Positions 10,066 through 39,466 of a stretch of 39,466 nt of DNA are shown piece by piece. Within the stretch, counting starts at the first letter, position 1. Every line of letters starts with the position of its first letter. The stretch comes from a virus. Below the pieces are notes generated by a model. The model did not search any database, was not told the DNA's origin, and was given only the letters and a program-made list of their open reading frames with translations. The DNA lies in IMG/VR virus record IMGVR_UViG_3300031857_020022, positions 1 through 39,466 of that record, one strand, 5' to 3'. A program made the position numbers and the translations under genes.

Positions 10066-10332
10066 ATGACATCAAAAGAATTTGTTATTTGGTTAAAGGG
10101 ATTTTCAAAAGCAGCAAACTCATATAATATTACACCTGCACAATGGGATGAAATACAAGAGGAATTAGAAAAAGTAAATGATGGTGGAGTTTCAATTGGA
10201 GTAGGCGGACAGGGAATACCAAACGGAACTATAACAGCAACACCTGGTTATGGTACTCTTACATATAATCCATCCACATCAACTACAAATGGATATCCAA
10301 GCGGTAGTAGTTTTCATTATACAAATTTTTAA
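10066..10332 (+). CDS. Small phage protein with helical head and Gly/Ser/Thr tail
   Basis: 88 residues in two parts: a helical N-terminal domain (FVIWLKGFSKAANSYNITPA, then WDEIQEELEKV) and a low-complexity Gly/Thr/Ser/Asn tail. The opening MTSKEFVIWLKGF with a following TPxQWD is, from memory, a recurring small protein of unknown function in myovirus-type phages, which supports the phage assignment. No catalytic residues. Starts 7 bases after the preceding gene. Confidence 0.72.
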   Translation: MTSKEFVIWLKGFSKAANSYNITPAQWDEIQEELEKVNDGGVSIGVGGQGIPNGTITATPGYGTLTYNPSTSTTNGYPSGSSFHYTNF

Positions 10333-10333
10333 T

Positions 10334-15187: not shown

Positions 15188-15190
15188 AGT

Positions 15191-15934
15191 ATGAATAAAT
15201 TACCAATTAGTATAGGAATATTGAGTTGGCATAGTGGACAAGTTTTAGTAGATACCCTAACAACATATTACAATAATGGATTATTTGATATAGTTGATGA
15301 TGTAACTATTCTTTTTCAGGAATTTAATGAACAAGATTATCAAATAGCAAAGCATTTTGGATTGAATGTTATTGGTATGAATTCTAATATTGGAATTGGA
15401 AAAGCATTTATTAAATTAACTGAAAATGCAAAGAACGATTATGTTTTAGTATTAGAACATGATTGGAATTTAATTGAAGATAAAGAAACTACACACAATA
15501 CATTGAAGAGAAGTATATCAGCAATTGAAATGGGAATGGATGTTGTCCGTTTAAGACATAGAAAGAATCCAGGTTATCCACATTTTTCATTTAGACATAA
15601 AGGTGAAGAATTAACTTATTTCGATGAAGAAATTGGAGCAACATCACCACATCTTTTGGATTCAATACATTGGTGCGATGCTGATATTGAATTTTCAGAA
15701 CAAATCAAAAAATCAGAAGATATGTTTTGGACTACATCTCGTTACGGTAATTGGACAAACAACCCATGTTTATACAAAAAACAATTTTATTTAGATGTTG
15801 TTAAACCATTTGCTGGTGATGGAATTGCATTGGAAGGAAATATAGGTAGATGGTGGGTTCAGCAAGAATATAAAGTAGGACACAACGAAGGATTGTTCAT
15901 GCATAACGATTGGCAAAAATACGGAAGAAGATGA
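15191..15934 (+). CDS. Probable GT-A fold glycosyltransferase
   Basis: 247 residues. Opening LPISIGILSWHSGQVLVDTL resembles the first strand of family 2 transferases. VLVLEHDWNLIED (about 89-101) is in the place of the metal-binding motif, with a single D rather than DxD. MFWTTSRYGNWTNNPCLYKK and the terminal His-rich NEGLFMHNDW are probably acceptor or metal ligands. Three bases separate it from the preceding methyltransferase, and it shares ATGA with the next gene. Confidence 0.72.
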   Translation: MNKLPISIGILSWHSGQVLVDTLTTYYNNGLFDIVDDVTILFQEFNEQDYQIAKHFGLNVIGMNSNIGIGKAFIKLTENAKNDYVLVLEHDWNLIEDKETTHNTLKRSISAIEMGMDVVRLRHRKNPGYPHFSFRHKGEELTYFDEEIGATSPHLLDSIHWCDADIEFSEQIKKSEDMFWTTSRYGNWTNNPCLYKKQFYLDVVKPFAGDGIALEGNIGRWWVQQEYKVGHNEGLFMHNDWQKYGRR

Positions 15935-16722
15935 AATATACAATAATAAGTTCTCTAACAAATTATGGTGTAGAGCAAATTAGACCTTTTGTAGAATCCA
16001 TAAATACATGTGGGTATAAAGGAGAAAAATTAATGTTGGTTTATAATGTATCGGAAGATGTAATACGATATTTGGATGATAATGGTTGGTTAATAGCACA
16101 ATCGGAAGAACAGCAACACATTATTTTACAAAGATTCAGAGACATGTATGCTTTACTTCAAACTTATCAAACTGATGTAATTATTTGGGTTGATGTAAAG
16201 GATATAGTATTTCAAAAAGACCCAACCGAATGGTTAAATAAATGGATGCAAAGAGATATTTTAGCATTTAGTGAATCCTTAAAATTTGGAGATGAAGAGT
16301 GGGCCAGATTAAATGCTGGAACCAGTTTTCCTATGGAATGGGAATGGTTACAAAAAAAAGAAATATATTGCGCAGGAACGATTGTAGGTAAAAGAGAAGC
16401 AATAAAAGATTTGTTTATTGACATTTATAGATGGAGTTTAACAACGGCAAATCCTCAACAATTAGCCGACCAAGCTGCATATAATATTTTAATTCATATG
16501 TATCAATGGAAAGATAAAGTTCAATTTGTAAAACAACAAGAAGGATTTGCAGCTCAGTTACATTTAAAGTTAAAAAAGGGAGATACACTACCGTATACCG
16601 AAGAATTACCAACTATTGATGGTGATGAAATTAAAAACTCAAAGGGTGAACTATATACATTAGTTCATCAATATGATAGAAACGAAGAACTTAAAAAAAT
16701 AATAGAAAACAAATACAAATGA
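15931..16722 (+). CDS. Probable GT-A fold glycosyltransferase
   Basis: 263 residues. TDVIIWVDVKDIVFQKDP (about 63-80) carries a DVKD acidic motif where GT8-like and related transferases have DxD. CAGTIVGKREAIKDLF and DQAAYNILI match the late part of nucleotide-diphospho-sugar transferases. The in-frame start at 15910 lies inside the previous gene; the ATG at 15931 forms an ATGA junction and gives the normal opening MKYTIISSLTNYG. Donor unknown. Confidence 0.75.
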   Translation: MKYTIISSLTNYGVEQIRPFVESINTCGYKGEKLMLVYNVSEDVIRYLDDNGWLIAQSEEQQHIILQRFRDMYALLQTYQTDVIIWVDVKDIVFQKDPTEWLNKWMQRDILAFSESLKFGDEEWARLNAGTSFPMEWEWLQKKEIYCAGTIVGKREAIKDLFIDIYRWSLTTANPQQLADQAAYNILIHMYQWKDKVQFVKQQEGFAAQLHLKLKKGDTLPYTEELPTIDGDEIKNSKGELYTLVHQYDRNEELKKIIENKYK

Positions 16723-17621
16723 AAAAAATAGTTATAACATCTTTCGTAATGCCACATGAGTTGGATGATTTAGAAAGAGTATTGGTTGATTTGAATAAAG
16801 CATCTAAATTTATAGATGGAATGAATTATGAATTTTATATTTCATTTTCAATTTCCGATTACTTATTTGATTGGGAAAATTCAAAAGTAGACAAACAATT
16901 CTTTATTGATAGATTCAATTCAATGAAACCACTAACGGATTGGGCCGGTAAGGCAACATACCAAATAAGAGATGAAATATTTGGAGCATTTCAATGTAAA
17001 CGATATGCACATATGGAATGTAAAGATGCAACGCATTTTATTTGGTTGGATACTGATATTTGCTTTGATGATAAGATTCTTTATTATATGGAAGCAAGTA
17101 TTGATAGATTGAAACAAACCGACCCAAATGTTGATAAATATTTTATTACTCCTGAAATAGTAAAATATTGGGATACTACTTGGGATTGTTTAGTCAATGA
17201 AAACTACCTTAATAAAGAATTAGATTATTGCAAAACAAATAATCCATTCTCTGAAAGTGGTGAGGTTGGTGATGTTGAATTATTATCAGTAATAAACAAT
17301 GTTCCCGGACAACCAAGAACTAAATTTGGAGCAGGTTGGTTTACATTATTATCAAAGCCCCTATTAGATAGAATACCTTTGCCAGAATCAATGGGTGCGT
17401 ATGGTCCTGATGATACATTTTTAATGTGGGGTATTGAAAAATTAAATCAAACAGGAGCAAACATATATCAATTTAAATTAAAAAATTATATTGTTTGTGA
17501 AAATTATATTTATAGAAATAGAAAACATTACGATTCTATAATCAAAAGAATTGATAGAAAAGAAGAATTTAAAAATAAAGCATTTAGTAACTTTCAATTA
17601 GAAATAGATAAAATACAATGA
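16719..17621 (+). CDS. Probable GT-A fold glycosyltransferase
   Basis: 300 residues. The strand HFIWLDTDICFDDKILYYM (about 105-123) has a classical DTD metal motif. FGAGWFTLLSKPLLDRI and YGPDDTFLMWGIE form the acceptor loop and the second acidic site common in large family 2 transferases. It overlaps its neighbours on both sides by 4 bases. It is the last clear glycosyltransferase in the series and is followed by the second dioxygenase. Confidence 0.82.
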   Translation: MKKIVITSFVMPHELDDLERVLVDLNKASKFIDGMNYEFYISFSISDYLFDWENSKVDKQFFIDRFNSMKPLTDWAGKATYQIRDEIFGAFQCKRYAHMECKDATHFIWLDTDICFDDKILYYMEASIDRLKQTDPNVDKYFITPEIVKYWDTTWDCLVNENYLNKELDYCKTNNPFSESGEVGDVELLSVINNVPGQPRTKFGAGWFTLLSKPLLDRIPLPESMGAYGPDDTFLMWGIEKLNQTGANIYQFKLKNYIVCENYIYRNRKHYDSIIKRIDRKEEFKNKAFSNFQLEIDKIQ

Positions 17622-22120: not shown

Positions 22121-22531
22121 ATGGCATATAGTGAAAAGGTGTTAGACCATTATTCTAACCCAAAGAACGTAGGAACATTAGATAAATCTAAATCGAATGT
22201 AGGTACGGGATTGGTAGGTGCACCCGAATGTGGTGATGTAATGAGATTACAAATCGAAGTAAATGATGGTGTGATAACCGATGCTAAATTCAAAACTTTT
22301 GGGTGTGGTTCGGCAATCGCGGCATCTTCCCTAGCAACTGAATGGTTGAAGGGTAAGAGTGTAGATGAAGCCCTAACGATTGATAATATGGATTTGGTAG
22401 AAGAACTAAATCTACCGCCTGTAAAAATACATTGTTCGGTATTGGCAGAAGATGCAATTAAATCGGCAATAAACGATTATAGAAAAAAGCAAGGATTAGA
22501 AGAATTAATTTTTGAAGAATCACATATATGA
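22121..22531 (+). CDS. iscU: Iron-sulfur cluster scaffold protein IscU
   Basis: Scaffold on which 2Fe-2S and 4Fe-4S clusters are built before transfer to target proteins. The 136 residues are full length for the family (about 128). All ligands are present: C37 and D39 in GAPECGDV, C62 in FGCGSAIA, and H104-C105 in the chaperone-binding LPPVKIHC motif. No IscS, HscA or HscB gene is seen in the window, so sulfur and chaperones would come from the host. It shares ATGA with iscA. Possible clients here are the ferredoxin (28718) and the nuclease (6049). Confidence 0.96.
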   Translation: MAYSEKVLDHYSNPKNVGTLDKSKSNVGTGLVGAPECGDVMRLQIEVNDGVITDAKFKTFGCGSAIAASSLATEWLKGKSVDEALTIDNMDLVEELNLPPVKIHCSVLAEDAIKSAINDYRKKQGLEELIFEESHI

Positions 22532-22851
22532 TTACAGTTTCAGAATCAGCAGCAAAAAAATTAAAATCACTGATTGAAGAAAGTGGGTTTACCACTCCTT
22601 ATGTTAGAGTGGCAGTTAAGGGTGGTGGTTGTAGTGGTTTATCATATGACCTTTCATTTGATACCGACCAACATCCTACCGATACAATTGCAGAAGACAA
22701 GGGTGTAAAAATTTTAGTAGACAATAAATCGTTACTATACCTATTCGGTACTGAATTAGAATTTTCAGATGGTTTAAATGGTAAAGGTTTTCAGTTTATA
22801 AATCCCAACGCTAGCCGAACTTGCGGATGTGGAGAAAGTTTCGCAGTATGA
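22528..22851 (+). CDS. iscA: A-type iron-sulfur carrier IscA
   Basis: A-type carrier that receives iron or clusters and passes them to apoproteins. The 107 residues hold the three conserved cysteines: C35 in KGGGCSGLSY and C99, C101 in TCGCGESF. The length and the C-terminus match IscA/ErpA/HesB. It is coupled to iscU by ATGA and to the cupin by ATGA, so the three are translated together. Single IscA-like genes occur in some large phages; the pair with a full IscU is less common to my knowledge. Confidence 0.96.
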   Translation: MITVSESAAKKLKSLIEESGFTTPYVRVAVKGGGCSGLSYDLSFDTDQHPTDTIAEDKGVKILVDNKSLLYLFGTELEFSDGLNGKGFQFINPNASRTCGCGESFAV

Positions 22852-23255
22852 TAATAAAACCAAAAAAAGTAGAAAAACTTTGGGGTTACGAATTATGGAT
22901 TCACAATGATAAACAATATTGTGGAAAACTTTTAGTATTTCCAAAAGAAGGTAGTAATTTTTCTATGCACTACCATATGATTAAAAATGAAACTTGGTAT
23001 GTACAATCCGGTAGGTTTCAATTTGATTGGATTGATAATACAAAATTACACAGAATGGTTATAAATGAAGGTGATGTAATTTATATAGAAAGAGGAAAAC
23101 CACACCAATTAACCGCATTAGAAGAAGATTCATCAATATTTGAAGTTTCAACTGAACACTTTGAAGATGATTCTTACAGAATTTATAGAGATAATCCACA
23201 AGAATTAGATGATATTCGATACGTTGAAAATCCAAATACGAAATTCGATATATGA
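22848..23255 (+). CDS. Cupin, mannose-6-phosphate-isomerase-like
   Basis: 135 residues forming one cupin domain. The start KPKKVEKLWGYELWI corresponds to the KPWGxE opening of type II mannose-6-phosphate isomerase domains. Metal ligands are visible in SMHYHMIKNETWYVQSGR (His, His, Glu) and the last His in GKPHQL. The start at 22848 (ATGA with iscA) is preferred over the in-frame 22821 start inside iscA. It may isomerise or bind a sugar phosphate feeding the glycan cluster; a pure binding role cannot be excluded. Confidence 0.82.
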   Translation: MIIKPKKVEKLWGYELWIHNDKQYCGKLLVFPKEGSNFSMHYHMIKNETWYVQSGRFQFDWIDNTKLHRMVINEGDVIYIERGKPHQLTALEEDSSIFEVSTEHFEDDSYRIYRDNPQELDDIRYVENPNTKFDI

Positions 23256-23980
23256 GTAAATTGTGGATTATAGGAGATAGTTTTACAGGTGTTTCAAAAG
23301 AAAAAAATTATTGGCCTGAAATTCTATGCAGCAAATTTAAAGGTAAAAACTATTATGTTTCATCGAAAAGCAGTAGAGATTTTCAAACAATAATTGATAT
23401 ATTTTTAAGAAACTTAAAGGATATAAATTCAGAAGATTTTGTAATTTTGGTATTACCCACATTAGCTAGAGTAAGAGTGCCGAGAAGATATGAGATATGT
23501 GATGTAGAACATTGTTCGTATGAACTTCAAAATCACGAAGAATTAAAATCAAAACATCACGATTTTTTTATGGGTGCACATGCATACCAACCTGATAATT
23601 TAATTGGTAGTGATTTTGAATTAGAATACCCATTAACAGGAATTTCAATTGAAGATTTAGATAAAAAAGTAAAAACAAATTATATTATTAACTCATCAAA
23701 TGCATCAAAACAAAATTATATTGAGATATTATGTTCATTAAAAGAATATTTACCATTTGAACTTTTTATATGGAGTTGGGAAAATGAAATAGAATCCGAA
23801 ATTATTACAACTAAAAACCAAATAACAAAGCAAATTGGATTTTGGCATACGATACATGATATTTGGGAAGAAACAAATGGTGAGTATGGCACAAAGGCAG
23901 ATTTTCATTTTTCAGAAAAAATGCACAAAGCATTTGCAGATTATCTTATTGTTAAATTTCCACAATTTTTTAACGTATGA
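23252..23980 (+). CDS. SGNH/GDSL-like hydrolase (1 of 4)
   Basis: 242 residues. LWIIGDSFTG (about 4-13) supplies the nucleophile Ser in the GDSF block I. The C-terminal ADFHFSEKMHKAFADYL (about 218-234) has the D-x-H dyad and the helix that follows it. VLVLPTLARVRVP may be the block with the Gly/Asn oxyanion residues, although N is not obvious. SGNH enzymes often remove acetyl groups from sugars, and the gene follows the cupin by ATGA. Three more such proteins lie at 31273-34217. Confidence 0.72.
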   Translation: MSKLWIIGDSFTGVSKEKNYWPEILCSKFKGKNYYVSSKSSRDFQTIIDIFLRNLKDINSEDFVILVLPTLARVRVPRRYEICDVEHCSYELQNHEELKSKHHDFFMGAHAYQPDNLIGSDFELEYPLTGISIEDLDKKVKTNYIINSSNASKQNYIEILCSLKEYLPFELFIWSWENEIESEIITTKNQITKQIGFWHTIHDIWEETNGEYGTKADFHFSEKMHKAFADYLIVKFPQFFNV

Positions 23981-24464: not shown

Positions 24465-27400
24465 ATGAAAAAGACAATTTTGTCGTTAGTATTCGCAGCA
24501 TTTACGATGGTAGGTTTCGGACAAATCACAACCTCAACCATTTCAGGTGTTGTAAAGAATGAAAAGAAAGAAGTGTTGGCAGGTGCAACCATTCATGCGG
24601 TTCACACACCAACAGGGACAGAGTACACAACTACAACAAACAAAGGTGGTGTATATGTTTTACCTGCGGTAAGAGTAGGTGGACCATATGTTATCCATGC
24701 TTCGTTTGTAGGATTTAAGAAAGGAGAAGAGAAAGATGTGAATACCGAATTAGGTCTTACATCTAATGTGAACTTCGTATTAATTGATGAAGCTAAGGCT
24801 TTAAAAGAAGTAGTAGTAGTTGCAGGTAAGTCTCTATTCTCAAAAGAGAAGACCGGTGCTGCACAACAATTCGGACGTAGAGAATTAACTACTATTCCAA
24901 TTACGGGAGCAAGAACTATTGATGGGATTACAAAGTATAACCCATTCGGTAATGGTAATTCATTCGGTGCACAAGATAGCCGTATGAATAACTTTACAAT
25001 TGATGGTTCTCAATTTAACAACAACTTCGGTTTAGGTTCATCTGCACAGGCGGGTGGTAGAACAGGCGCAAGTGCGATTTCATTGGATGCGATTGACCAA
25101 TTACAGGTTAACGTAGCACCATTTGATATTCGTCAGAGTGGTTTCACAGGTGCGGGTATCAATGCAGTAACTCGTTCAGGTACTAACCAAATTGAAGGTT
25201 CGGTGTATCAAACACAAAGAGATAATAGTTCTCGTTATGTGGGTGATAACGCAAGAGGAACAACCGTAACTGCATCTAAATTTGATGAGAAAGTACAAGG
25301 TTTCCGTTTGGGAGCACCGATTATCAAAAACAAATTATTTATCTTTGGTAACTACGAACAAATTGAAAGAACAGAGCCAGGTACAACTTGGATTTCCGAT
25401 GGTTCACCACTTACAGGTACTCAAATTAGTAGAGTAAAGTATAGTGATATGCAAACTCTTTCTACATTTATGAAAGAGAAGTTTAACTATACAACTGGTC
25501 CATGGGAAGGTTATTCTAACACAAACACTTCAAAAAAGTTTTTGATTAGAACTGACTGGAACATTAACGATAAAAATAAATTGACAGCTCGTTACGTTCA
25601 CCATAATTCTGAAGCAGAGATTAATATTTCAAACTCTCAATCAGCAGGTGCAGGTAATAGAACTACACAATTCAACGCAATGTCATTTAAGAATAGTGGA
25701 TATACTATTCAGGACAATACTCGTTCAGCAGTATTGGAATTGAACTCTAAAATCTCTAACACACTTCACAATAACCTAATCGTTTCTTACGATAAGCAAA
25801 TTGAGAATAGAGGATATATGAGCTCTATGTTTCCAACTATTGATATTAGAGAAGGTTCAGCAACTTACACTTCAGTAGGTTTTGACCCATTCACTCCATC
25901 AAACAAATTGGACTATTGGACATTTAACGTAACAAACAACTTAACAAAGTATATGGAAAAACATACTTTGGTTGGTGGTTTCAACTTCCAAAAGTATCAA
26001 TCTAATAATCTATTCTATCCAGCATCAAATGGTGTTTACATCTTTAATAGTTTGAATGATTTCTACACTGCAGCTAATCAATCATTAGCAAATGGTGGTA
26101 GACCTTCTACATTTGCACCAGCTCGTTTCCAATTCCGTTATTCGGCATTACCAGGAGCAGTTGAACCAATGCAAGTGTTAAAGACAAATCGTTTGGATTT
26201 GTATTTGCAAGATGAATATAATGCAACTCAAAACCTTAAATTAACTTTTGGTTTGAGAGCAAACGTAATTGCATTTGAAAATACCGCTTTAGAAAATCCT
26301 GCAATTACTGCAATGACTTTCGCAAATGGTGAGAAATGGAACACAGGTGTAATGCCTAAAACACAATTATTGTTTGAACCTCGTTTTGGTTTCAACTATG
26401 ATGTGAAAGGTGAAAAGAAAACACAAATCCGTGGTGGTAGTGGTATATTCACTGGTAGACCTCCTTATGTATTCTTATCTAACCAAATTGGTAACAATGG
26501 TGTGTTGACAGGATTTATTGATGTATCAGGCGCGGCAGCAGCTAACTATGGTTTCACTGCTAATCCAAATCAATACTTTGTTCCTTCAACTCCAACATTA
26601 CCTTCAACATTTGATTTAGCATTGACTGACCCTAACTACAAAATGCCACAAGTTTGGAAAAACAATTTGGCAGTTGACCAAAAGTTACCATGGTTAGGTT
26701 TAGTAGCTAGTGTTGAGGTTCTTTACAATAAAACACTTAATGCAGTTCATTACTACAATGCCAATTTGGATAAACCAGTTGGTACATTGTTAGGTGTTGA
26801 TAACAGACCACTTTACGCAGGTAATGACGCCGGTGTGAGAGTAAATGATAACGTATCAATGGCAGCAGTTCTTACAAATAGAAATGGTGCTTACAATCGT
26901 TCAATCACTTACAAATTGGAAAAACCAATCTCTAACGGTCTTTGGGGTTATGTAGCATATACAAATGCACAAGCTGAAGACTTTATGAGTGCCGGTTCAA
27001 TCGCAAGTGGTAGCTGGCAATCAGCAGTATCAGTATTTGGTAACAACACATTAAACCTTTCAACATCCGACTTCGTAGTTAGAAATCGTATTGTAGGTTT
27101 ATTAGGTTATAGAATTGATTATGGTAAGAAGTATGGTGGAGCAACTACATTTACATTAGGATATGTAGGAGCACAAAACAATCCATTCTCTTACATCATA
27201 GCAGGTGACTTGAATGGTGATAGAGTATCAAACAATGATTTGGTATTCGTTCCACAAAAAGGTTCTGATATTCGTTTCGCACCATTAACAGTAGGAACTA
27301 GAGTTTATACTGAAGTAGAACAACAGGCAGCATTTGATGCATTTATTTCGCAAGACCCTTACCTTTCAACTCGTAGAGGTCAATACGCAGAAAGAAACGC

Positions 27401-27734
27401 ATTAGACCTTCCGTTCTTACATAGATTCGACCTTTCAGTTGCACAAGATGTTTTCATAAAGATTAAAGAAAAGAGAAACGCTTTCCAAATTCGTTTCGAT
27501 ATTCTTAACTTTGGAAATATGTTGAATAACAAATGGGGTGTTTCTCAAAGAGCAGGTGCTCCACAATTGTTGAACTTTGTTAGCAGAGATGCGGCAGGTG
27601 TTCCAACATATAGATTAGCAACACAAAGAGATGCTAGTGGAACCTATTTGGCAAAAGATACATATCAATACAATTCATCTGTATTTGATGTATGGACAGC
27701 TCAATTGGGTATTCGCTACACTTTTGGTAGATAA
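24465..27734 (+). CDS. TonB-dependent outer-membrane receptor, Oar/CarboxypepD_reg type
   Basis: 1089 residues, a complete receptor. A Sec signal peptide (1-19, ending VGFGQ) is followed by a carboxypeptidase regulatory-like domain (about 24-105, ISGVVKNEKKEVLAGATIHA) and a plug domain (about 115-235, with NNFTIDGSQFNNNFG and GFTGAGINAVTRSGTNQ). A large beta-barrel runs to the C-terminus, which ends in LGIRYTFGR with the usual aromatic residue. The order matches Bacteroidota Oar-like receptors. It is flanked by two intrinsic terminators, and no SusD-type partner is adjacent, so polysaccharide uptake of the SusCD kind is not indicated. Codon use favours CGT and AAC/TTC more than the glycan genes. 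It could change uptake, replace a phage receptor, or block superinfection; all are inference. Confidence 0.95.
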   Translation: MKKTILSLVFAAFTMVGFGQITTSTISGVVKNEKKEVLAGATIHAVHTPTGTEYTTTTNKGGVYVLPAVRVGGPYVIHASFVGFKKGEEKDVNTELGLTSNVNFVLIDEAKALKEVVVVAGKSLFSKEKTGAAQQFGRRELTTIPITGARTIDGITKYNPFGNGNSFGAQDSRMNNFTIDGSQFNNNFGLGSSAQAGGRTGASAISLDAIDQLQVNVAPFDIRQSGFTGAGINAVTRSGTNQIEGSVYQTQRDNSSRYVGDNARGTTVTASKFDEKVQGFRLGAPIIKNKLFIFGNYEQIERTEPGTTWISDGSPLTGTQISRVKYSDMQTLSTFMKEKFNYTTGPWEGYSNTNTSKKFLIRTDWNINDKNKLTARYVHHNSEAEINISNSQSAGAGNRTTQFNAMSFKNSGYTIQDNTRSAVLELNSKISNTLHNNLIVSYDKQIENRGYMSSMFPTIDIREGSATYTSVGFDPFTPSNKLDYWTFNVTNNLTKYMEKHTLVGGFNFQKYQSNNLFYPASNGVYIFNSLNDFYTAANQSLANGGRPSTFAPARFQFRYSALPGAVEPMQVLKTNRLDLYLQDEYNATQNLKLTFGLRANVIAFENTALENPAITAMTFANGEKWNTGVMPKTQLLFEPRFGFNYDVKGEKKTQIRGGSGIFTGRPPYVFLSNQIGNNGVLTGFIDVSGAAAANYGFTANPNQYFVPSTPTLPSTFDLALTDPNYKMPQVWKNNLAVDQKLPWLGLVASVEVLYNKTLNAVHYYNANLDKPVGTLLGVDNRPLYAGNDAGVRVNDNVSMAAVLTNRNGAYNRSITYKLEKPISNGLWGYVAYTNAQAEDFMSAGSIASGSWQSAVSVFGNNTLNLSTSDFVVRNRIVGLLGYRIDYGKKYGGATTFTLGYVGAQNNPFSYIIAGDLNGDRVSNNDLVFVPQKGSDIRFAPLTVGTRVYTEVEQQAAFDAFISQDPYLSTRRGQYAERNALDLPFLHRFDLSVAQDVFIKIKEKRNAFQIRFDILNFGNMLNNKWGVSQRAGAPQLLNFVSRDAAGVPTYRLATQRDASGTYLAKDTYQYNSSVFDVWTAQLGIRYTFGR

Positions 27735-28300: not shown

Positions 28301-28721
28301 AACACTTGTTATAGTAAGTGGATATTTCAATCCAATTCACGAAGGACACATAGAATACCTCAATCGTTCAAAAGCGCTTGGGGATTTTCTATTTGTAATA
28401 ATCAATAACGATTATCAGAGACGTTTAAAAGGTTCTAAACCATTTATGACAGAAGAACAAAGAAGAACTATACTAAAAAATATAAAAGCAGTTGATGATG
28501 TGATTGTTTCAATTGATGAAAATAAATTTGTTGATAGAACAATAGAATTAATTGTTAGAGAAATGGGTGATAAATTTGATAGAATACTTTTTACAAATGG
28601 TGGTGACCAAACTGCAGAAACGATAGGTGAAAAAGATATATGTGAAAAGTTAGGAATCGAAATGGTATTTGGATTGGGTGATAAAATTCAATCTTCATCT
28701 TGGTTATTAAATAAGATATGA
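28287..28721 (+). CDS. Cytidylyltransferase-like nucleotidyltransferase (RfaE/HldE C-terminal type)
   Basis: 144 residues, a single nucleotidyltransferase domain. The hallmark [19 protein letters not shown] (about 9-27) contains HxGH for nucleotide binding; [19 protein letters not shown] and the EEQRRTIL lid follow, as in HldE C-terminal domains, TagD and related enzymes. The expected reaction is NTP plus a sugar- or polyol-phosphate to an NDP-linked product and pyrophosphate. With the HddA-like kinase it could complete an NDP-heptose. It overlaps its two neighbours. Confidence 0.88.
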
Positions 28722-29026
28722 GTTATATAATTGGAAATCCTTGTGTTAGTTGTATTGATGCAAGTTGTGTTAGAGTTTGTCCTGTAGATTGTATACATGG
28801 TCCTATAAAAACAGATGATTCGGCTAGAGATGCCTTTAACTTAACAGATGAGGAAAGGCAAGGAAAGCAATTATATATCAATCCTGATGATTGTATTAAG
28901 TGTGGCGCATGTGTACCAGAATGTCCCGTAGATGCAATATACAGAACGGAAGAGGAAGCAATTAGAGCAGGTGATGAAATATCAGTACATAAAAACTATG
29001 AGTTCTTTGGTCTTAAATTTTCGTAA
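28718..29026 (+). CDS. 7Fe/8Fe ferredoxin (FdxA-like)
   Basis: 102-residue electron carrier. Cysteines C9, C12, C17, C21, C25 ([19 protein letters not shown]) and C59, C62, C65, C69 ([16 protein letters not shown]) have the same spacing as the 7Fe ferredoxin of Azotobacter (FdI), which binds one 3Fe-4S and one 4Fe-4S cluster. The gene is joined to the nucleotidyltransferase by ATGA. It may supply electrons to a reductase or to the dioxygenases, or replace host ferredoxin. Confidence 0.93.
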
Positions 29027-31272: not shown

Positions 31273-32004
31273 ATGAATAAATTATATGTAAATGGTTGTA
31301 GTTTTTCATGTGGTGGTGGATTGGATATAAATTCGGTTAAGGAATTATATAAAGAAAAAGGAGTTGATATACAAAATCATTTAGAATTTTCTTGGCCAGA
31401 AATTTTATCAAAAAAATTAAATATAGAATTAATAAATGATTCGGTTCAAGGTGGCTCTATAAATAGATTGATAAGAACGACATACGAGCATCTTTTGAAA
31501 ACTAAATTTTCAAAAGATTTTTACTACATTTTAGAATTACCACCAGTTTGGAGAGATGAAATATATTCAACCAAATTAAAAAGATTTGTAAACATAACGC
31601 ATGGAAATCTTAAAAATCCTGAATTTGACAGAACTGAAGAAGTAAACGGATATTCTAAAAGTGATTTTTTAAAAATACATGAGAATACTATTAAATGGTT
31701 TGAATCTTTTGTTGATTATGATGTGGAAAAAAGAAAAACACTATTAGATTTGATGGGGTTGGTTTCAACTTTAAAACATAAAGAAATAAATTTTTTATTT
31801 TTAGAAAACGATGAATACTTTAGAATTGAATTATTAAAAAATGGATTACAATTTAAGTGTTTATTAATGGATAAATCATTTAATAATTCATTTTCAACTA
31901 TAAAAGATGAAGTTGGATTTTTCGACAATCACATGGGGGTCAAAGGAAATATAGAAGCTGCAGATAAAATTTATAGTTATCTTATAAAAATGGTATATTT
32001 ATAG
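31273..32004 (+). CDS. SGNH/GDSL-like hydrolase (2 of 4)
   Basis: 243 residues. The opening KLYVNGCSFSCGGGLD holds the nucleophile Ser in a GCSF variant of block I. QGGSINRLIRTTYEHLL (about 57-73) supplies the Gly and Asn for the oxyanion hole. FFDNHMGVKGNIEAADKIY (about 216-234) has the D-x-H dyad. The order and length match uncharacterised SGNH proteins of phages. It starts 3 bases after the frameshift product ends. A sugar deacetylase role is possible but untested. Confidence 0.75.
   Translation: MNKLYVNGCSFSCGGGLDINSVKELYKEKGVDIQNHLEFSWPEILSKKLNIELINDSVQGGSINRLIRTTYEHLLKTKFSKDFYYILELPPVWRDEIYSTKLKRFVNITHGNLKNPEFDRTEEVNGYSKSDFLKIHENTIKWFESFVDYDVEKRKTLLDLMGLVSTLKHKEINFLFLENDEYFRIELLKNGLQFKCLLMDKSFNNSFSTIKDEVGFFDNHMGVKGNIEAADKIYSYLIKMVYL
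31994..32001 (+). promoter_or_regulatory. -7-like element TATATTTA before the endolysin
   Basis: TATATTTA overlaps the end of the SGNH gene, 17 bases before the endolysin ATG. The -33 position holds TTTA rather than TTTG. Weak. Confidence 0.3.
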
Positions 32005-32017
32005 TAAACAAATAAAC

Positions 32018-32857
32018 ATGCTACTTAAAAGAGGAGATAATAACGAGAATGTAAAATTGATGCAGGAGAAATTAGGTATTTCACCCGCAGTAACTAACTT
32101 TGGACCTAAAACCGAAGAAGCAGTAAAAGAATTCCAAAGAAAACATGGATTAACTGCAGATGGTATAGTAGGACCTAAAACTTGGGAAATGATTGTTGGT
32201 TCTGCAGCACCTGCACCAGTACCACAACCAGCGGCACCTATCGCATCTGTTGGTGGATTAAAATTAGATAAATTAAAAGGACATATTCCTGATGCAGTAA
32301 TCCAAATGATTCCTGATACAGCAGCTAAATTCCAAATAAATACCCCGTTAAGATTAGCACACTTTTTAGCACAATGTGGACATGAGAGTGGTGGATTCCG
32401 ATTAACACAAGAGAACTTAAACTATTCAGCTAAAGGTTTGAATGGTATTTTTAAGAAATATTTCCCAACGGAAGCGGCAGCAGCAGCTTATGCTAGAAAC
32501 CCACAAAAGATTGCAAACAAAGTATATGGTAATCGTATGGGTAATGGTGATGAGGGGAGTGGCGATGGCTACAAATTTCGTGGCCGTGGATATATTCAAT
32601 TGACGGGAAAAGATAACTATACAGCATTTGGTAAATCTATTGGTGAAGATATATGTGCAAACCCTGATAAGGTGGCATCACAATACGCTTTACTTTCAGC
32701 AGCATGGTTCTTCTCTAAAAACGGATTACATAAGATGGCTGATGGTGGAGCAACTGATGCAGTGGTAACATCTATTACTAAAAGAGTAAATGGTGGTACA
32801 ATCGGATTAGCAGACCGTATCAAACACTTCAAAGAATATTATCATTTATTAACGTAA
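32018..32857 (+). CDS. Endolysin: peptidoglycan-binding domain plus GH19 muramidase/chitinase-like
   Basis: 279 residues. The N-terminal PG_binding_1 domain (about 1-60) has LLKRGDNNENVKLMQEKLG and GLTADGIVGPKTWEM. After a Pro/Ala linker (about 63-78) comes a glycoside hydrolase family 19 domain with catalytic Glu 123 (CGHESGGFR), a second acidic site near 169 (NGDEGSGDG) and the FRGRGYIQLTG block (about 177-187). No signal peptide, so a holin or other release is needed. The length is normal. It cleaves the glycan strand of peptidoglycan at lysis. Neighbours on both sides are SGNH proteins. Confidence 0.95.
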   Translation: MLLKRGDNNENVKLMQEKLGISPAVTNFGPKTEEAVKEFQRKHGLTADGIVGPKTWEMIVGSAAPAPVPQPAAPIASVGGLKLDKLKGHIPDAVIQMIPDTAAKFQINTPLRLAHFLAQCGHESGGFRLTQENLNYSAKGLNGIFKKYFPTEAAAAAYARNPQKIANKVYGNRMGNGDEGSGDGYKFRGRGYIQLTGKDNYTAFGKSIGEDICANPDKVASQYALLSAAWFFSKNGLHKMADGGATDAVVTSITKRVNGGTIGLADRIKHFKEYYHLLT

Positions 32858-32863: not shown

Positions 32864-33664
32864 ATGAAATCGGTTATATTTCTTGGTTCATCGAATACGT
32901 TTGGTGTAGGATTACATACATTTAGAGATTTTTATCTTTCGGAAGCGGGTATTAAATCATTACAATGGCCTTATTATGAAGATGGTGATGATAAATCTTT
33001 TATTAAACAAAATAGATGGACAAATAAAGTTGCAAATTATCTAAATAGAAATGAAATAAATATATCCGAAGTGGGAGGTTCACCCGCAGCGGCATTATAT
33101 AAATTACAAATTACAGATTTATCAGAAATTGATTATATATTCTTTGAATTTTCTGGTATATACAATTATTACGATAGGTTTATGCATGGGGTTGAATATC
33201 CAAAAACTCCACATGAGATAGAATCCTTTTTAACAAATGGAAAAAATGATAGACCCGAATTAAGAGAGAGAATTTTAAATTGGCTTATAGAATACAATCC
33301 ACACGAATTTATAGATACGGTTTTGTTGAAGTTAAGAAAAAAAATTGAAGAATTAAAAGATAAAAAATTTATTATTTTATTTTGGCATGGACCATATCAC
33401 GATGGAGGAATAGAAAAAATAGATTTTAATTCTGAAAAATACAGTTGGTTAAAAAAATATATGGTAAAATTTCCAACGAATCAAAATGTAGATAATTATA
33501 TTGTTCATAATTTTATATTGGAAAAAAATTTAAGAGTGTGCGATGAACACCCCTTTACACATTTTATGAATAAAGATATCCACGCAGGTATTAAGGGAAA
33601 CGAAGTGGTTTCGGAAATAGTTATAAATTATATAAATGAAAAAGAAGTTACTAATAGCTGGTGA
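32864..33664 (+). CDS. SGNH/GDSL-like hydrolase (3 of 4)
   Basis: 266 residues. VIFLGSSNTFGVGLHTF has a GSSNTFG block I with the Ser. ISEVGGSPAAALYKLQI may be the Gly block. The C-terminal FMNKDIHAGIKGNEVVSEIV (about 236-255) has the D-x-H dyad. FILFWHGPYHDGG-type strands lie in the middle. It begins 7 bases after the endolysin and overlaps the next SGNH gene by 29 bases. It is distinct in sequence from the others, so it is not a recent tandem copy. Confidence 0.72.
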   Translation: MKSVIFLGSSNTFGVGLHTFRDFYLSEAGIKSLQWPYYEDGDDKSFIKQNRWTNKVANYLNRNEINISEVGGSPAAALYKLQITDLSEIDYIFFEFSGIYNYYDRFMHGVEYPKTPHEIESFLTNGKNDRPELRERILNWLIEYNPHEFIDTVLLKLRKKIEELKDKKFIILFWHGPYHDGGIEKIDFNSEKYSWLKKYMVKFPTNQNVDNYIVHNFILEKNLRVCDEHPFTHFMNKDIHAGIKGNEVVSEIVINYINEKEVTNSW

Positions 33665-34217
33665 TAGTTTTGCAGCAGATTGGACAAAAAAGTATAAAGA
33701 TGTTTGGGGTTGGGTAAATATGCTATCCAATGAATTTGATATTACAAACGTAGCAGAGGCAGGAGTTAGTGAATATAAAATTTACAAACAATTGGAAAAT
33801 ATGGATGTTTCAAAATTTGACCATATAATTGTTTCACATACATCAGCATATAGAATACCAATTATAGAGCATCCGATTCATAAAGAAGATATATTGCATA
33901 ACAATTGTGATATAATTTATTCAGATGTAAAGGAACATACTTACAACCCCACTATGAAAACTGCTGCTGAATTTTATAGTAGTATATTTCATCCTGATTA
34001 TTTTTGTTTTGTAAATGATTTAATTTATAAAGAAATATTTAATTTAACTCCAAACGCACTTCATATAACTTTTTTTGATAGTTTTTATCCAAAAAATGTT
34101 TTGAAATTTGAAGAAATTTTCTTATCTTCAAAAGGAAATGCAAATCATTTGGATGATAAAGGAAATGAATTTGTATATAAAACAATTTTAAAAAAATTAT
34201 CAAATGGAAAAAATTAA
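33636..34217 (+). CDS. SGNH-like protein (4 of 4), catalytic Asp possibly lost
   Basis: 193 residues. KLLIAGDSFAADW has the GDSF nucleophile block, and VSEYKIYKQLENM follows as in SGNH proteins. At the C-terminus GNANHLDDKGNEFVYKTIL aligns with DNHMGVKGN of the 31273 protein, so the His stays but the Asp two residues before it is Ala here. It may act with a Ser-His pair or have lost activity. Its start overlaps the previous SGNH gene by 29 bases and its end overlaps the small membrane gene. Confidence 0.68.
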   Translation: MKKKLLIAGDSFAADWTKKYKDVWGWVNMLSNEFDITNVAEAGVSEYKIYKQLENMDVSKFDHIIVSHTSAYRIPIIEHPIHKEDILHNNCDIIYSDVKEHTYNPTMKTAAEFYSSIFHPDYFCFVNDLIYKEIFNLTPNALHITFFDSFYPKNVLKFEEIFLSSKGNANHLDDKGNEFVYKTILKKLSNGKN

Positions 34218-34408: not shown

Positions 34409-34416
34409 TATATTTA
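34409..34416 (+). promoter_or_regulatory. -7-like element TATATTTA before the 34436 gene
   Basis: TATATTTA lies 20 bases before the ATG. A TTG at 34384-34386 stands 22 bases upstream, near the expected -33. Moderate to weak; it probably starts the transcript for the envelope-protein block. Confidence 0.35.
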
Positions 34417-34435
34417 TGTATGAGAATAACCAACT

Positions 34436-35089
34436 ATGAAACAAAAAGTAACAGCACTGGCGTTAGGCCTTAAGGAAAGAGCTATATATTTCATATTAGC
34501 TCCGTTTTTAGCATTTATTGGACTTGCGTTCCTATTCCAAGTCTTCTTTGTAATCCTTCAATTTAGTGGAAATGAAAATCTTGCAACACAAATTGCAAAT
34601 GAAATCACATGGAGAATTGATGGTACATTCAAAAATAATCCAGATAATATTTGGTATGAAGCCGATGAACACATTTGGGTTGAAAGTGTTACCAACAATG
34701 TAAAGATAGGCAAATTAGCAGGAAATCGCAATTTAGAATTTGGTGTAAAAAATGTATTAGAAGAATATCTACAAGATAAAGGGTATGACCTTACGCCATC
34801 TGCTCCAAACAAATTACAAGTACAAATCGTATATTTAGATGTTCTTACTACAAAAAAGAACGTATCTGTATTCCACAAAAATGAGGAAGAAGTTGTTATC
34901 AGAATGAAGGGTATCCTTTATAAAGATGGCAAAAAAGAAAAAGAAGTTATGGTTGAAGAATCATCTTCTGAAATTTCAATGTCCACACTTATTGTAGACC
35001 AAGGTGGAAAGTTTAATCAAACATCATTAAGTAATGCATTAAAGAAGGCTGCAGATAAACTGATAACTAAACTTTTTGAAAATAAATAA
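34436..35089 (+). CDS. Membrane-anchored periplasmic-type protein of unknown function
   Basis: 217 residues. A long hydrophobic helix (about 16-43, IYFILAPFLAFIGLAFLFQV) anchors the protein. The rest is soluble: FGVKNVLEEYLQDKGYDLTP, then LQVQIVYLDVLTTKK and ILYKDGKKEKEVMVEE, a beta-rich fold reminiscent of YajG or LptE-like lipoprotein domains with the pattern of a C-terminal helix (SNALKKAADKLITKL). It lies just before two secreted proteins and starts after a promoter-like element. Function unknown. Confidence 0.7.
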   Translation: MKQKVTALALGLKERAIYFILAPFLAFIGLAFLFQVFFVILQFSGNENLATQIANEITWRIDGTFKNNPDNIWYEADEHIWVESVTNNVKIGKLAGNRNLEFGVKNVLEEYLQDKGYDLTPSAPNKLQVQIVYLDVLTTKKNVSVFHKNEEEVVIRMKGILYKDGKKEKEVMVEESSSEISMSTLIVDQGGKFNQTSLSNALKKAADKLITKLFENK

Positions 35090-35090: not shown

Positions 35091-36770
35091 ATGAAAAAAC
35101 TTTTAACTTTTATAGGGGTATTGTTAATATCTCTTTCTTCGTATAGTCAAATTATAGTAAACCAATCAATATCATCAGGTCCTTATAGAGTTGGTGATAC
35201 AATAACAATAACTCACACAGTTGATAAAGGAAATACTAAACCAAGATACTTTTGGTTAAGATATTCTTTTAACAACAAAGCACTTACCTATGTTTCTACA
35301 AGTTGGAATCAGGGTAGTCAATCACAAACATATTACACAGGTTGGAATAATTATTCATTTACTCCATCGGCATCTTTTCCTGATACTGCACTATATGCAC
35401 AATATCAGGCTACACCTTGGGGATACAATGCAAACAATGATTGGAATGTAGGACAATTAGCAGTTCAAAGAGCCGACCAATCCGTTAATGGTGTAATGGC
35501 AACTCAAAAATATATTATTAAAGACCAGAACACTTACAATGCAATTTTTAAATTAAATCACGCATATGCAATCGATAGTGCAAGTGGTACTAATATTCCT
35601 TATATTAGAACTACTGCCGGTCAAACTACAATAACTGGTGTAACTGGTAATACATCTTTCTTTAAGGTAAGAGTTTTATTTCCACAAGGATATAATATAA
35701 CAGCACATCAGGCTCAATTGATGCAACTTAAAACCGATGGTAGTGGTGAAATAGATTGGACTAAACCTGCTATTGCAAGTAGAGCATTTGATGGTAGTGG
35801 TGAGGCTCTATTTACAACTGGTGTTAAGGTTGGTGATAGTTTAGGTGTATGGGTTGGTGGAGCAACACAGCAATCGTGGATGAATAATATTGTGACAGTA
35901 TCTGACGCATATAAATCATTCCTTGCAATTTCACAAACGGACATTAATGGTAATCCAACATACTTTACAAGACCAGTATTAGAAAAGAAAATTGGTTTAA
36001 TCACAAAAGATAAAACTGTATTTAGTGAATCGGATTCTTATTACTCATTTGCATATGTAATGGGACAAGATGTATCGGCAAAAGCATACATACCAACATC
36101 GGCAGCACCTGTAAACAATACCGTAAACTATAAATGGCACGCTGGATTATTAAATCAGAGTTGGTTAGATGGTGTTGCAAAACATAGAGTATATGTAACA
36201 ACACCTGCACAAACTGTGGATGCAGTATTTGCATGGGGTGGTGATTTGGATTGGTCACATTCATCTTCACCCGATGCTATTGTGGCAAGTATCAACGCCG
36301 GTAACTTTACAAATAAGGCAAATCCTGGTACAGTAGATATTACTTCAATACAAACAATGGCAATGACTTCTAATATGAGTAATGTGTACCAAAACAAAGC
36401 GGCAGAATCTGCAAAACTTTCAGTTGTTTCCAAATTGGAAAACGGTAAAGTTGTATTAACAGGTTCTCTAACTAAAGAAGGTTTAGCAGGTTTGCAAGTT
36501 GTAATGAATTATGATAGTACAAAATTGACTTTGGAAAATGTAATATTTGATGCAGGAAGCACAATTACAAATTTCTCAACACATGATAATGGTAGATTAA
36601 CATTTGGTTCAATAGACCAACTAAAAACAGCTAGAATCAAAACGGGTACTCCGTATAAATTGATATTTGCACCAAAGGTAGCATTAACTAATACCGCAGG
36701 TTTATTCTTCTTTGTATTGGCAGATGCAGTTGATGGTGCCGGAAACAAAGTTGAACTAACAATAGAATAA
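35091..36770 (+). CDS. Secreted multidomain protein with C-terminal cohesin-like domain
   Basis: 559 residues. A clear signal peptide (about 1-20, ending SLSSYSQ) exports it. The N-terminal part (about 22-130) is beta-rich. A middle module IVTVSDAYKSFLAI with TDINGN (about 262-284) is echoed in the next gene (IVTVSDVYLAFKE). The final 120 residues (AKLSVVSKLENGKVVLTGSL, GLAGLQVVMNYDSTKLTLEN) look like a cohesin-type beta-sandwich. The ATG at 35091 is chosen over 35076 because it gives a normal signal peptide. It is likely a surface or periplasmic protein made during infection, not an ordinary virion protein. Confidence 0.78.
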   Translation: MKKLLTFIGVLLISLSSYSQIIVNQSISSGPYRVGDTITITHTVDKGNTKPRYFWLRYSFNNKALTYVSTSWNQGSQSQTYYTGWNNYSFTPSASFPDTALYAQYQATPWGYNANNDWNVGQLAVQRADQSVNGVMATQKYIIKDQNTYNAIFKLNHAYAIDSASGTNIPYIRTTAGQTTITGVTGNTSFFKVRVLFPQGYNITAHQAQLMQLKTDGSGEIDWTKPAIASRAFDGSGEALFTTGVKVGDSLGVWVGGATQQSWMNNIVTVSDAYKSFLAISQTDINGNPTYFTRPVLEKKIGLITKDKTVFSESDSYYSFAYVMGQDVSAKAYIPTSAAPVNNTVNYKWHAGLLNQSWLDGVAKHRVYVTTPAQTVDAVFAWGGDLDWSHSSSPDAIVASINAGNFTNKANPGTVDITSIQTMAMTSNMSNVYQNKAAESAKLSVVSKLENGKVVLTGSLTKEGLAGLQVVMNYDSTKLTLENVIFDAGSTITNFSTHDNGRLTFGSIDQLKTARIKTGTPYKLIFAPKVALTNTAGLFFFVLADAVDGAGNKVELTIE

Positions 36771-36771
36771 T

Positions 36772-39075
36772 ATGAGAACTTTATTAGTTACATTATTCTT
36801 ACTTATATCATTTTTTGGGTTTGGACAGTCAGTAACGGCACCCGAACCCAAATCGTTTGCCAAAAGTACAACCGGACAGGATGCTAGTGGATTTTCCCTA
36901 AACGGATTCAGTTCAACAGCAACTTTACTTTGTGCTATTGGTTTACCACAGGCATCATCCGGAACAACATTTTATCTATCAACTACAACAGGTTTAACAC
37001 CTGCAAGTGGTTATACAATGAGTGGTAACAAAACTCGTTTGGCATTTACTGGTACGATGGCAAATATTAATAACGCATTGGCAACCTTAAAAGTAAATAC
37101 AAACGCCACATCAGGTAACATACAAATATCAGTATCGGCAACTGTTAATCCAACTGGGTATTTTTATAACCCGTCAAACGGACACTTTTATAGACCAATA
37201 TCAACCGGTGCAACATATTCAAATGCTAAACTACTTTCATCGCAACAAACTTTCAAAGGACAGCAAGGATATTTGGTAACAATAACTTCAGCTGATGAAG
37301 ATGCTTTTATATTCGCCAATGTTCCGCAAGCCAGTATTTGGTTTGCACTAACCGATGAAATAGTTGAGGCACAATGGAGAATTGATGCAGGACCTGAAGC
37401 AGGAACTCTTATCAAAACCTCAAATGGACAAACTGCAGGAAACATACAAGGACAATACAATAACTGGGCAGGTGGTGAACCAAACAATAGTGGTAACGAA
37501 GACTACGCAGTAACTAAATGGGGTGGTGGAAACCAATGGAATGACTTACCAAACGGATTTAGTTGTGCTTATGTAGTTGAATTTGGAACTTGGAGTAATC
37601 CAGATGACCAAACATTTACTGAATTTTATTCCAATAGTGTTATACATTCAAATGGTGATGTGTTTAGGGTTCAATATACTTTTAACTTTACTAATCTTAC
37701 CGCATCTCGTTTTGCAATTCGTACTCAATCACAATCTAATAATGTCTGGACACCTTTCTCACAAAATTATACAACATTAAATAATATTGGTAGAGCCGAT
37801 ATGAGTAATCAATCTGATACAATAAAAATAGTAGGCGGTATATCAGCAAATATAGATCCTGGTCAAGTTGAATATTCATATACAAATCCAAACGCAAGTT
37901 GGTTAAATGGTGATAGCCGTTTATTAATTGATATGAGAACATTTGGTAATACGGTTCCATCAACAATATCACGTGCAAAAATATTAGATGCATATGATGG
38001 GCCTGTAACATTTTTAAATAGTGATGCGACATGGGCACAATATAGAGTTCCTTCACCGCTTACAAAAGTAACCGATGGAACATCTACTTACAATACTAAT
38101 ATCAGAAATGTAAATGGTTGGAATACTGATTATGCTTTTACATCAACAATTAGTTTCTCAAACCAAATGGTATATAAACCACAAAGAGTTCAATTTCAAA
38201 ATCCAATAACAGATACTATAACTTCAATGTTAGATAGAATAGTGACAGTATCCGATGTATATCTTGCTTTCAAAGAATTTGCAGATGGCGGTGGTATATT
38301 TGGACCAGGTAGTGGAACTCAATTCACTTCTGGGATTCAATTTATGAATGCTGATGTAAATGGAGACGGACAATTTAATGAGGCAGATTGTTTCAAATTA
38401 TTAAGACATCTTTTAGGACAAGAATCATTACTTACCACAAACAATTTGGAATCTTTTATGAAGATACTTCCAAAATCAACTTACGATGTTATTACCAAAA
38501 CCAATTGGCAAACATACCCAAATGTAACATCGGACAGTTATAGTGGTATTACATTAAGTTCTTCACAATTATTAAACGCATATATTCTTAATACATTTTG
38601 GAAAGGAGATGTAAACTTATCACATTCACCTACACAATCTGCAACTGGTAATTCGGTAAATCAAAGTAATTCAATCTCTAATTCAGTTGTTAAATTGCAA
38701 AGTAATAATAACGTAGTAGATTTTTATTTTGAAACCGAACAAATAAGTGATAGTGTAATAGCAACTATACAATTTAAACCCACATTACAAACTATTGCAG
38801 GAACTCAATTAAGAATAAACTACGATAACAAAATCATTTCATATACAAAAACAGATATAAACACAAATGGTTCACCATCAAACTTTGCAACAAATAGAGG
38901 AAACTTTGTAAATATTGGTTCATTGAATACCGATGGTAGTTCAATATCAAATGCAACTTACAGAATTGTATTTAAAGCAAATCAAAACCTAAAAGGTATT
39001 TTGGGATTAATTAGTATTGATAATATAGAAGTTGTAGATAAGAATGGAATAATTGTAAACACAAGAATATTATAA
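36772..39075 (+). CDS. Secreted C-type-lectin protein with dockerin-like and cohesin-like modules
   Basis: 767 residues. A signal peptide ends in FFGFGQ. The C-type lectin domain (about 125-270) is shown by GHFYRPISTGATYSNA, WFALTDE, WAGGEPNNSGNEDYA and WNDLPNGFSC; EPN and WND are the usual carbohydrate/calcium sites. A single dockerin-like loop (about 526-549, ADVNGDGQFNEADCFKLLRH) and the shared IVTVSDVYLAFKE module follow. The C-terminal IATIQFKPTLQTIAGTQLRI segment is cohesin-like. It shares its C-terminal architecture with the upstream protein, so the two may bind each other or a common partner. A sugar-binding adhesin at the host surface or a phage-made decoy are options. Confidence 0.8.
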   Translation: MRTLLVTLFLLISFFGFGQSVTAPEPKSFAKSTTGQDASGFSLNGFSSTATLLCAIGLPQASSGTTFYLSTTTGLTPASGYTMSGNKTRLAFTGTMANINNALATLKVNTNATSGNIQISVSATVNPTGYFYNPSNGHFYRPISTGATYSNAKLLSSQQTFKGQQGYLVTITSADEDAFIFANVPQASIWFALTDEIVEAQWRIDAGPEAGTLIKTSNGQTAGNIQGQYNNWAGGEPNNSGNEDYAVTKWGGGNQWNDLPNGFSCAYVVEFGTWSNPDDQTFTEFYSNSVIHSNGDVFRVQYTFNFTNLTASRFAIRTQSQSNNVWTPFSQNYTTLNNIGRADMSNQSDTIKIVGGISANIDPGQVEYSYTNPNASWLNGDSRLLIDMRTFGNTVPSTISRAKILDAYDGPVTFLNSDATWAQYRVPSPLTKVTDGTSTYNTNIRNVNGWNTDYAFTSTISFSNQMVYKPQRVQFQNPITDTITSMLDRIVTVSDVYLAFKEFADGGGIFGPGSGTQFTSGIQFMNADVNGDGQFNEADCFKLLRHLLGQESLLTTNNLESFMKILPKSTYDVITKTNWQTYPNVTSDSYSGITLSSSQLLNAYILNTFWKGDVNLSHSPTQSATGNSVNQSNSISNSVVKLQSNNNVVDFYFETEQISDSVIATIQFKPTLQTIAGTQLRINYDNKIISYTKTDINTNGSPSNFATNRGNFVNIGSLNTDGSSISNATYRIVFKANQNLKGILGLISIDNIEVVDKNGIIVNTRIL

Positions 39076-39416
39076 TGAAAAGAATAATTTTAATATTAAT
39101 TTTGTTTATTGTAGGATGTAGAAAATTAGATGTAATCCCACAACCAGAAACTAATAAAAACATATTTGAACAAACTTCTACCGTTATAGAAAACGGACAA
39201 GATATAGAGTTTAAATTGGAAACCAATGGGAAATATTTTTTAGTTTTATTTGATTCTACAGCAAATAAGGTAATTAGTAGGGAAAAATTCATAGGAACAT
39301 CAGGAAATAACGTAAAAAAGATATACACAAATAGTTTCAATCAAAAAAGTTTATATTTATATTTAGTTAATGAGAATAACCAACAAATTAAAAAAACTTT
39401 AATTACTGTGAAATGA
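39075..39416 (+). CDS. Lipoprotein of unknown function
   Basis: 113 residues. A hydrophobic start with lipobox LFIVGCRK (Cys at 15) marks a lipoprotein anchored in a membrane. The rest has no recognised domain; it is a small beta-rich protein (EFKLETNGKYFLVLFDS). The start overlaps the stop of the lectin gene by one base and its stop overlaps the next lipoprotein start (ATGA), so the last three genes are coupled. Confidence 0.8.
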   Translation: MKRIILILILFIVGCRKLDVIPQPETNKNIFEQTSTVIENGQDIEFKLETNGKYFLVLFDSTANKVISREKFIGTSGNNVKKIYTNSFNQKSLYLYLVNENNQQIKKTLITVK

Positions 39417-39466
39417 AAAAATTACTATTATTTTTAACAATAATGGTTATAGTAGGATGTAGAAAA
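39413..39466 (+). CDS. Lipoprotein, 3' truncated by the window end
   Basis: Only the first 18 residues are present: a hydrophobic stretch followed by a lipobox (MVIVGCRK). It matches the start of the preceding lipoprotein (IVGCRK), so a tandem duplication is likely. The rest lies outside the window. Confidence 0.75.
   Translation, partial: MKKLLLFLTIMVIVGCRK

Follow-up and report, generated by a model that had tools for sequence, protein, structure and literature searches.

The right edge of the window, by which we mean the whole 39,466-base viral record analysed here, holds what by sequence comparison is the 5′ half of an operon conserved in T4-type myophages. Our preferred reading, to which we give a probability of roughly 55%, is that this operon encodes a lectin complex which is made late, exported and anchored to the outer membrane of the infected cell, where its purpose would be to make things stick together. 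Such an exported surface complex is an unusual construction for a killing virus. More tentatively, the operon may amount to a self-contained, virus-encoded surface-assembly system that brings its own cargo, exchangeable anchors, a CsgG-superfamily pair and barrels, and that is deployed late in infection.

Five consecutive genes, which we refer to as T, A, B, L1 and L2, are separated by gaps or overlaps of a few bases, which is the arrangement of one transcript; the downstream part of the operon lies past the contig end and its gene content is taken from relatives. T4-type replication genes (DNA polymerase, sliding clamp, dUTPase and clamp loader, read from translations) occupy the left end of the window. 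The features discussed below are:

18448, 22093, 27811, 29036, 31996 and 34411, + strand: promoter-like TATATTTAT sites close to gene starts
34409..34418, + strand: promoter-like motif TATATTTATG, 27 bp 5′ of T, of a class that in relatives also precedes tail sheath, tail fibre and CsgG-like genes
34436..35089, + strand: T, 217-aa membrane-anchored protein that opens the operon, Lipoprotein_16-like (Pfam E 2.4e-6)
35091..36770, + strand: A, 559-aa protein exported by Sec, with two cohesin folds and a dockerin-like module that is degenerate
35145..35648, + strand: first cohesin fold of A (residues 19-186), Z about 13, 2.2-2.7 Å against many cohesins
35865..36305, + strand: dockerin-like module of A (residues 259-405) with the IVTVSDAY helix, Ca ligands lost
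36396..36767, + strand: second cohesin fold of A (residues 436-559), Z 13.7 to 4dh2_A
36772..39075, + strand: B, 767-aa Sec-exported lectin/cohesin protein
37144..37590, + strand: C-type lectin domain of B (residues 125-273), by profile, Pfam and fold match
38197..38637, + strand: dockerin-like module of B (residues 476-622), Pfam Dockerin_1 E 5e-4
38353-38388, + strand: complete F-hand Ca loop of B (residues 528-539), by loop conservation
38707..39072, + strand: cohesin fold of B (residues 646-767), Z 14
39075..39416, + strand: L1, lipoprotein with lipobox VGCRK, weakly type IX sorting domain-like
39413..39466, + strand: L2, second lipoprotein, which ends with the contig after ...VGCRK and is intact in relatives

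The reading frames lie at the positions stated in the initial annotation, A starting at the ATG at 35091 with a TTG at 35076 as an extension; that annotation was silent on the transmembrane gene T. In PHROGs, none of the operon proteins tested had a significant family match. A 15-base exact repeat, ATGAGAATAACCAAC, occurs at 34420-34434, just 5′ of T, and at 39370-39384 within L1, and may be due to chance.

Relatives in IMG/VR numbered 72 for protein B and 28 for A, on contigs of up to 289 kb, and about 90 contigs carry the operon. We take these relatives to be T4-type myophages because seven of nine large contigs encode gp23 capsid and tail sheath families, and the carriers, large freshwater viruses that infect Bacteroidetes, form a widespread group. 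In outline, T, A and B are followed by lipoproteins, then small membrane proteins, a CsgG-like protein and a probable outer-membrane barrel; the fuller order is T, A, B, optional cl8, L1, L2, cl5, cl4, cl7, cl3 and cl6, in which cl8 is a 297-aa protein with the look of an outer-membrane barrel and cl6 is a probable barrel judged by inspection. T stands directly 5′ of A in all 64 loci, and of the 46 distinct loci with 6 kb or more of downstream sequence, 45 encode the 242-aa CsgG-like protein cl3, 44 the membrane protein cl4, 42 T and 41 cl5. It had been remarked that phages rarely encode such Sec-exported sets, which needs qualification, as in T4-type phages of aquatic Bacteroidetes this set is standard. 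The operon is unlikely to stem from bacteria, whether as a gene taken recently from a host or as cargo of a prophage: scanning GTDB genomes with the CsgG-like family gave three loci only, two on Bacteroidetes MAG contigs which may themselves be phage, and one distant locus in Ignavibacteriales.

The sole cultured relative found was Flavobacterium phage immuto (vB_FspM_immuto, MW353177), where the operon is rearranged and spans genes 13-19, most of them annotated merely as hypothetical. In a tblastn search against phage isolates A had no match and B matched only the lectin part of immuto; the remaining genes were recognised from the immuto annotation and by comparison with relatives. Their order is a lectin with dockerin-like module (i13), a module protein (i14) and a cohesin protein with a sorting domain (i15), followed by homologues of cl5, cl3, cl6 and T, the CsgG-like protein sharing 55% identity with that of a relative. 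The gene set is thus like that of the window and its relatives, but in immuto lectin, module and cohesin are distributed over three proteins, T lies at the other end, and a type IX sorting domain takes the place of L1/L2.

The Sec signals of A and B, the two large signal-peptide proteins of the initial annotation, are clear, and by a heuristic assessment 139 of the 142 distinct A/B homologues had a hydrophobic core and 136 a small-residue/Q cleavage site. AlphaFold (AF2) models (pLDDT 85 for A, 79 for B) contained the nine-strand jelly-roll cohesin fold (PF00963), twice in A and once in B, with Z scores of 13-14 and about 2-3 Å rmsd to solved cohesins across the three folds, so that the structure prediction proposed for these parts does return cohesin geometry. 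Pfam Cohesin matches were found in 20 of 36 B homologues and 15 of 32 A homologues. The cohesin-like C-termini that had been noticed in both proteins also align with each other (E 1.6e-5), and the second cohesin fold is the best-conserved domain of A, with 75% mean pairwise identity.

The dockerin side of the system is less complete. A shared IVTVSD(A/V)Y module was correctly recognised in A and B, the modules aligning at E 1e-5 with IVTVSD as a helix within them, and the same module is common to immuto i13 and i14 (E 1e-10). The dockerin-like loop claimed for B is a complete and conserved F-hand loop, with Asp/Asn at positions 1, 3, 9 and 12 and Phe at position 8 in 36 of 36 homologues, and Asp/Asn at position 5 in 35 of 36, but it is a single loop and Dockerin_1 (PF00404) scores just below threshold on B (20.5 bits vs. 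a cut-off of 22.9). A type I dockerin has two F-hand Ca loops with their helices; B has one loop and A is degenerate, and as B therefore falls short of a full type I dockerin we use the label dockerin-like. Cohesin folds and dockerin-like modules would probably join A and B, a putative pairing that is weakened by a module below the Pfam cut-off and degenerate in A.

The lectin domain of B, with its EPN and WND motifs, was confirmed by several routes. Lectin_C (PF00059) was detected in 33 of 36 B homologues, the window's own B scoring 22.3 bits against a cut-off of 22.6, the B profile matched C-type lectins in the PDB (E 9e-6), and the model recovered a C-type lectin fold (Z 11.6). The model is weaker here (pLDDT 43-60 near residues 195-245), which gives more weight to sequence evidence for this part: E236, P237, N238, E243, W256, N257 and D258 are invariant in 36 of 36 homologues. 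In C-type lectins the EPN and WND motifs supply sugar and Ca ligands. The ligand positions E236, N238, E243, N257 and D258 of B are, as aligned, those of a mannose-type lectin site, and B would be expected to bind sugar in a Ca-dependent manner. The lectin is also the most conserved domain of B (74% vs. 59% for the whole protein), which suggests a single shared ligand and not a receptor specific to a strain, and argues somewhat against a variable tail part that binds receptors. An LCCL domain (E 5.7e-15) occurs mid-protein in several of the longer B proteins, e.g. L057:8001-10658 and similar proteins of 860 aa.

The initial annotation also described two lipoproteins with a GCRK lipobox, and VGCRK with the lipobox Cys is indeed present in both L1 and L2, but only 18 codons of L2 are visible in the window. 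Surface export of Bacteroidetes lipoproteins is signalled by K-(D/E)2 or Q-A-(D/E)2 after the lipidated Cys (PMC5080379). Of 90 L1/L2 homologues 74 have Lys at +3, and most have an acidic residue at +5, but a K-(D/E)2-like signal is seen in only 12 of 37 L2 and 1 of 53 L1 homologues, a partial fit. When compared with Rz spanins and Cor exclusion proteins, L1/L2 gave E 0.03-0.3, mostly from the signal peptide, and these identities were rejected.

A second type of anchor is found in relatives. The type IX sorting domain (TIGR04183/PF18962) is absent from A and B of the window, yet stands above curated cut-offs at the C-terminus of immuto i15 and of the A protein of locus L061; on A, an HMM of the domain finds it only in L053 and L060-L066. 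These loci have neither L1 nor L2, and immuto likewise by its gene list, whilst 82 A/B loci have L1 and 81 have L2, and all further loci that lack them are truncated within or just after A/B. As L060-L064 are near-identical, the anchor exchange represents a handful of lineages and not eight independent cases. The next-best, weak matches of the sorting-domain HMM among 3,935 ORFs were nearly all L1/L2, and in a profile comparison of the sorting domain with 13 families L1 ranked first (P 8e-4) and L2 second (P 3e-3), controls giving 0.1-0.6. Together, the lack of L1/L2 in sorting-domain loci and their place at the top of the weak matches are suggestive of lipoproteins that took over the role of the sorting domain as surface anchor, and, with weak support, of L1/L2 being type IX sorting domains themselves.

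The remaining genes may belong to an outer-membrane apparatus. The Ignavibacteriales locus encodes two adjacent proteins, the first 35% identical to immuto cl3 and passing Pfam CsgG, the second (L107b) related to both cl3 (P 1e-10) and T (P 9.5e-7); T thus appears distantly related to a CsgG-like protein from Ignavibacteriales. Direct searches with the CsgG model (PF03783) found neither cl3 nor T, E. coli CsgG had no match to cl3 in profile comparison, and PDB profile searches gave nothing useful for either protein. CsgG is a lipoprotein; the Sec signals of cl3 and immuto i17 lack a lipobox Cys. Because the kinship of cl3 and T to CsgG is indirect and the lipobox is missing, we do not file the system as curli.

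Late expression is suggested by the motif 5′ of T. ATATTTAT is present upstream of T in 37 of 62 relatives, with the consensus TATATTTATR, and TATATTTAT(A/G) or a close variant precedes several intergenic gene starts in the window by 19-41 bp. It also occurs 44-47 bp before the tail sheath gene in the genomes of two relatives, and in one relative's genome it precedes tail-fibre genes, virion-structural genes and cl3 itself; it was absent at the few DNA polymerase starts for which a check was possible. In several large relatives the motif shows a strong strand bias, although a backwards control pattern is about as frequent there and has the same bias. The standard Bacteroidetes promoter (TTG...TAnnTTTG) was found upstream of T in 0 of 62 relatives and the T4 late motif TATAAATA in 1 of 62. 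As the motif is shared with tail sheath, fibre and virion genes, the operon is probably expressed late, from a promoter class common to virion genes.

On the reading that we prefer, the infected Bacteroidetes cell would export the operon's proteins by Sec late in infection and mount them on its outer membrane as a multi-protein lectin complex, to which B would contribute the glycan-binding C-type lectin domain. A and B would be joined via their cohesin folds and dockerin-like modules, and the anchor would be the type IX sorting domain on the cohesin protein in immuto and L053/L060-L066, or L1/L2 in the window. Held in this way, via A and L1/L2 or the type IX anchored cohesin, B would show its lectin on the surface of the dying cell, whilst T, the CsgG-like cl3 and the barrels would probably help to bring the set to the outer membrane or keep it there. 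As infection draws to its close, the lectin would bind glycans, so that the cell, debris and neighbours stick together. The surface complex proposed by the initial annotation is retained in its cohesin and C-type lectin geometry, export and probable surface location, with a weaker dockerin part. The probable location comes mainly from relatives with the sorting domain on the cohesin protein, and we infer surface exposure for the window's phage and, more loosely, adhesion as the purpose. Counted against adhesion is that no clumping was seen with the pelagimyophage-like phage Melnitz (PMC9004378).

A close second to adhesion and aggregation, though in itself doubtful, is that the complex covers the phage's own receptor: by hiding the surface glycan of the host it would bar other phages and keep progeny from being lost on debris. 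The T5 lipoprotein Llp offers a comparison case. The export of a lectin together with lipoproteins, and its invariant glycan ligands, agree with such a role; a highly conserved lectin fits poorly with diverse host surface sugars, and with a late-type promoter the complex would come late to exclude other phages, but not to protect progeny. Both adhesion and covering seem likelier to us than a function in lysis or in the virion. An outer-membrane module working with the endolysin, as has been proposed for the curli pores of Melnitz (PMC9004378), is improbable: the operon does include a CsgG-like protein and small membrane proteins, in the window an endolysin gene lies near it, in L053/L060-L066 one follows B directly, and the same motif precedes the endolysin and T, yet lysis needs no lectin, cohesins or sorting domains, and the small membrane protein cl7 matches holin at only E 0.13. 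Least probable is that A and B are tail or head-decoration proteins which reach the particle despite their signal peptides, since, although the late-type promoter is common to structural genes and C-type lectin folds are known in some phage receptor-binding proteins, signal peptides are found in nearly all A/B homologues, type IX sorting domains occur in relatives and lipoproteins alongside, and the capsid and sheath genes of relatives lie tens of kb from the operon.

If adhesion by a surface lectin complex is correct, a common group of aquatic Bacteroidetes phages remodels dying cells by adding a lectin apparatus to their surface, and on this it could depend whether cells clump, whether they stick to particles and whether progeny are shed freely. 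It would also be a second case of T4-type phages with outer-membrane surface systems, beside the curli pores of pelagimyophages. Pelagimyophages and Melnitz carry a CsgGF curli-pore cluster whose function is unsolved (PMC7029224, PMC9004378), likewise an outer-membrane, curli-type gene set in a T4-type phage; those clusters pass CsgG/CsgF sequence tests, whilst the CsgG likeness here is remote, and their descriptions mention neither lectin nor cohesin nor lipoprotein cargo, whilst the operon's cargo is clear. In Caulobacter, the CsgG-like HfaB is needed to place the adhesive HfaA and HfaD on the surface (PMC6707917), similarly combining a CsgG-like protein with surface material, but in a cellular system with a polysaccharide holdfast for which no cohesin or C-type lectin is described. 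Cellulosomes share the cohesin fold (Z 13-14) and a dockerin-like Ca loop with A/B, but the operon has neither enzymes nor scaffoldin and only one F-hand of its module is intact. On these comparisons the operon would act like phage curli pores and the holdfast anchor HfaABD and has folds in common with cellulosomes, and we assign it to none of them. Type IX sorting domains are also present on three cryophage proteins, namely an endoglucanase, a glycoside hydrolase and a PA14 protein (PMC7468147), which like immuto i15 and L061 A are phage proteins addressed to the type IX system of the host, but they are reported as separate variable genes, in contrast to the conserved surface set found here. 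Single phage proteins with type IX sorting domains and phage curli pores were already known; in the open-access literature we found neither phage cohesin/dockerin systems nor a description of the operon.

Other genes in the window and in relatives were observed alongside. Four small proteins look SGNH/GDSL-hydrolase-like by eye (23252-23980, 31273-32004, 32864-33664 and 33636-34217), with no Pfam match for three and a weak DUF6071 match for one. An endolysin at 32018-32857 combines PG_binding_1 with glycoside hydrolase 19, and the promoter motif stands 22 bp before it. An Endonuclease_NS (DNA/RNA endonuclease) with a signal peptide is encoded next to the operon or not far from it in immuto and in relatives, as at L103:9935-10513 and L029:15832-16455; operon-bearing phages seem to export a nuclease too. 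A 1089-aa outer-membrane receptor-like protein (CarboxypepD_reg and OMP_b-brl_4, E 1.5e-50) is encoded at 24465-27734, and other TonB-receptor-like proteins adjoin the operon in relatives. Translations further show iron-sulphur scaffold-like (IscU/SufA-like) and ferredoxin-like genes at 22121-22851 and 28718-29026, and a long run of glycosyltransferase-, epimerase- and methyltransferase-like genes at 6942-17621.
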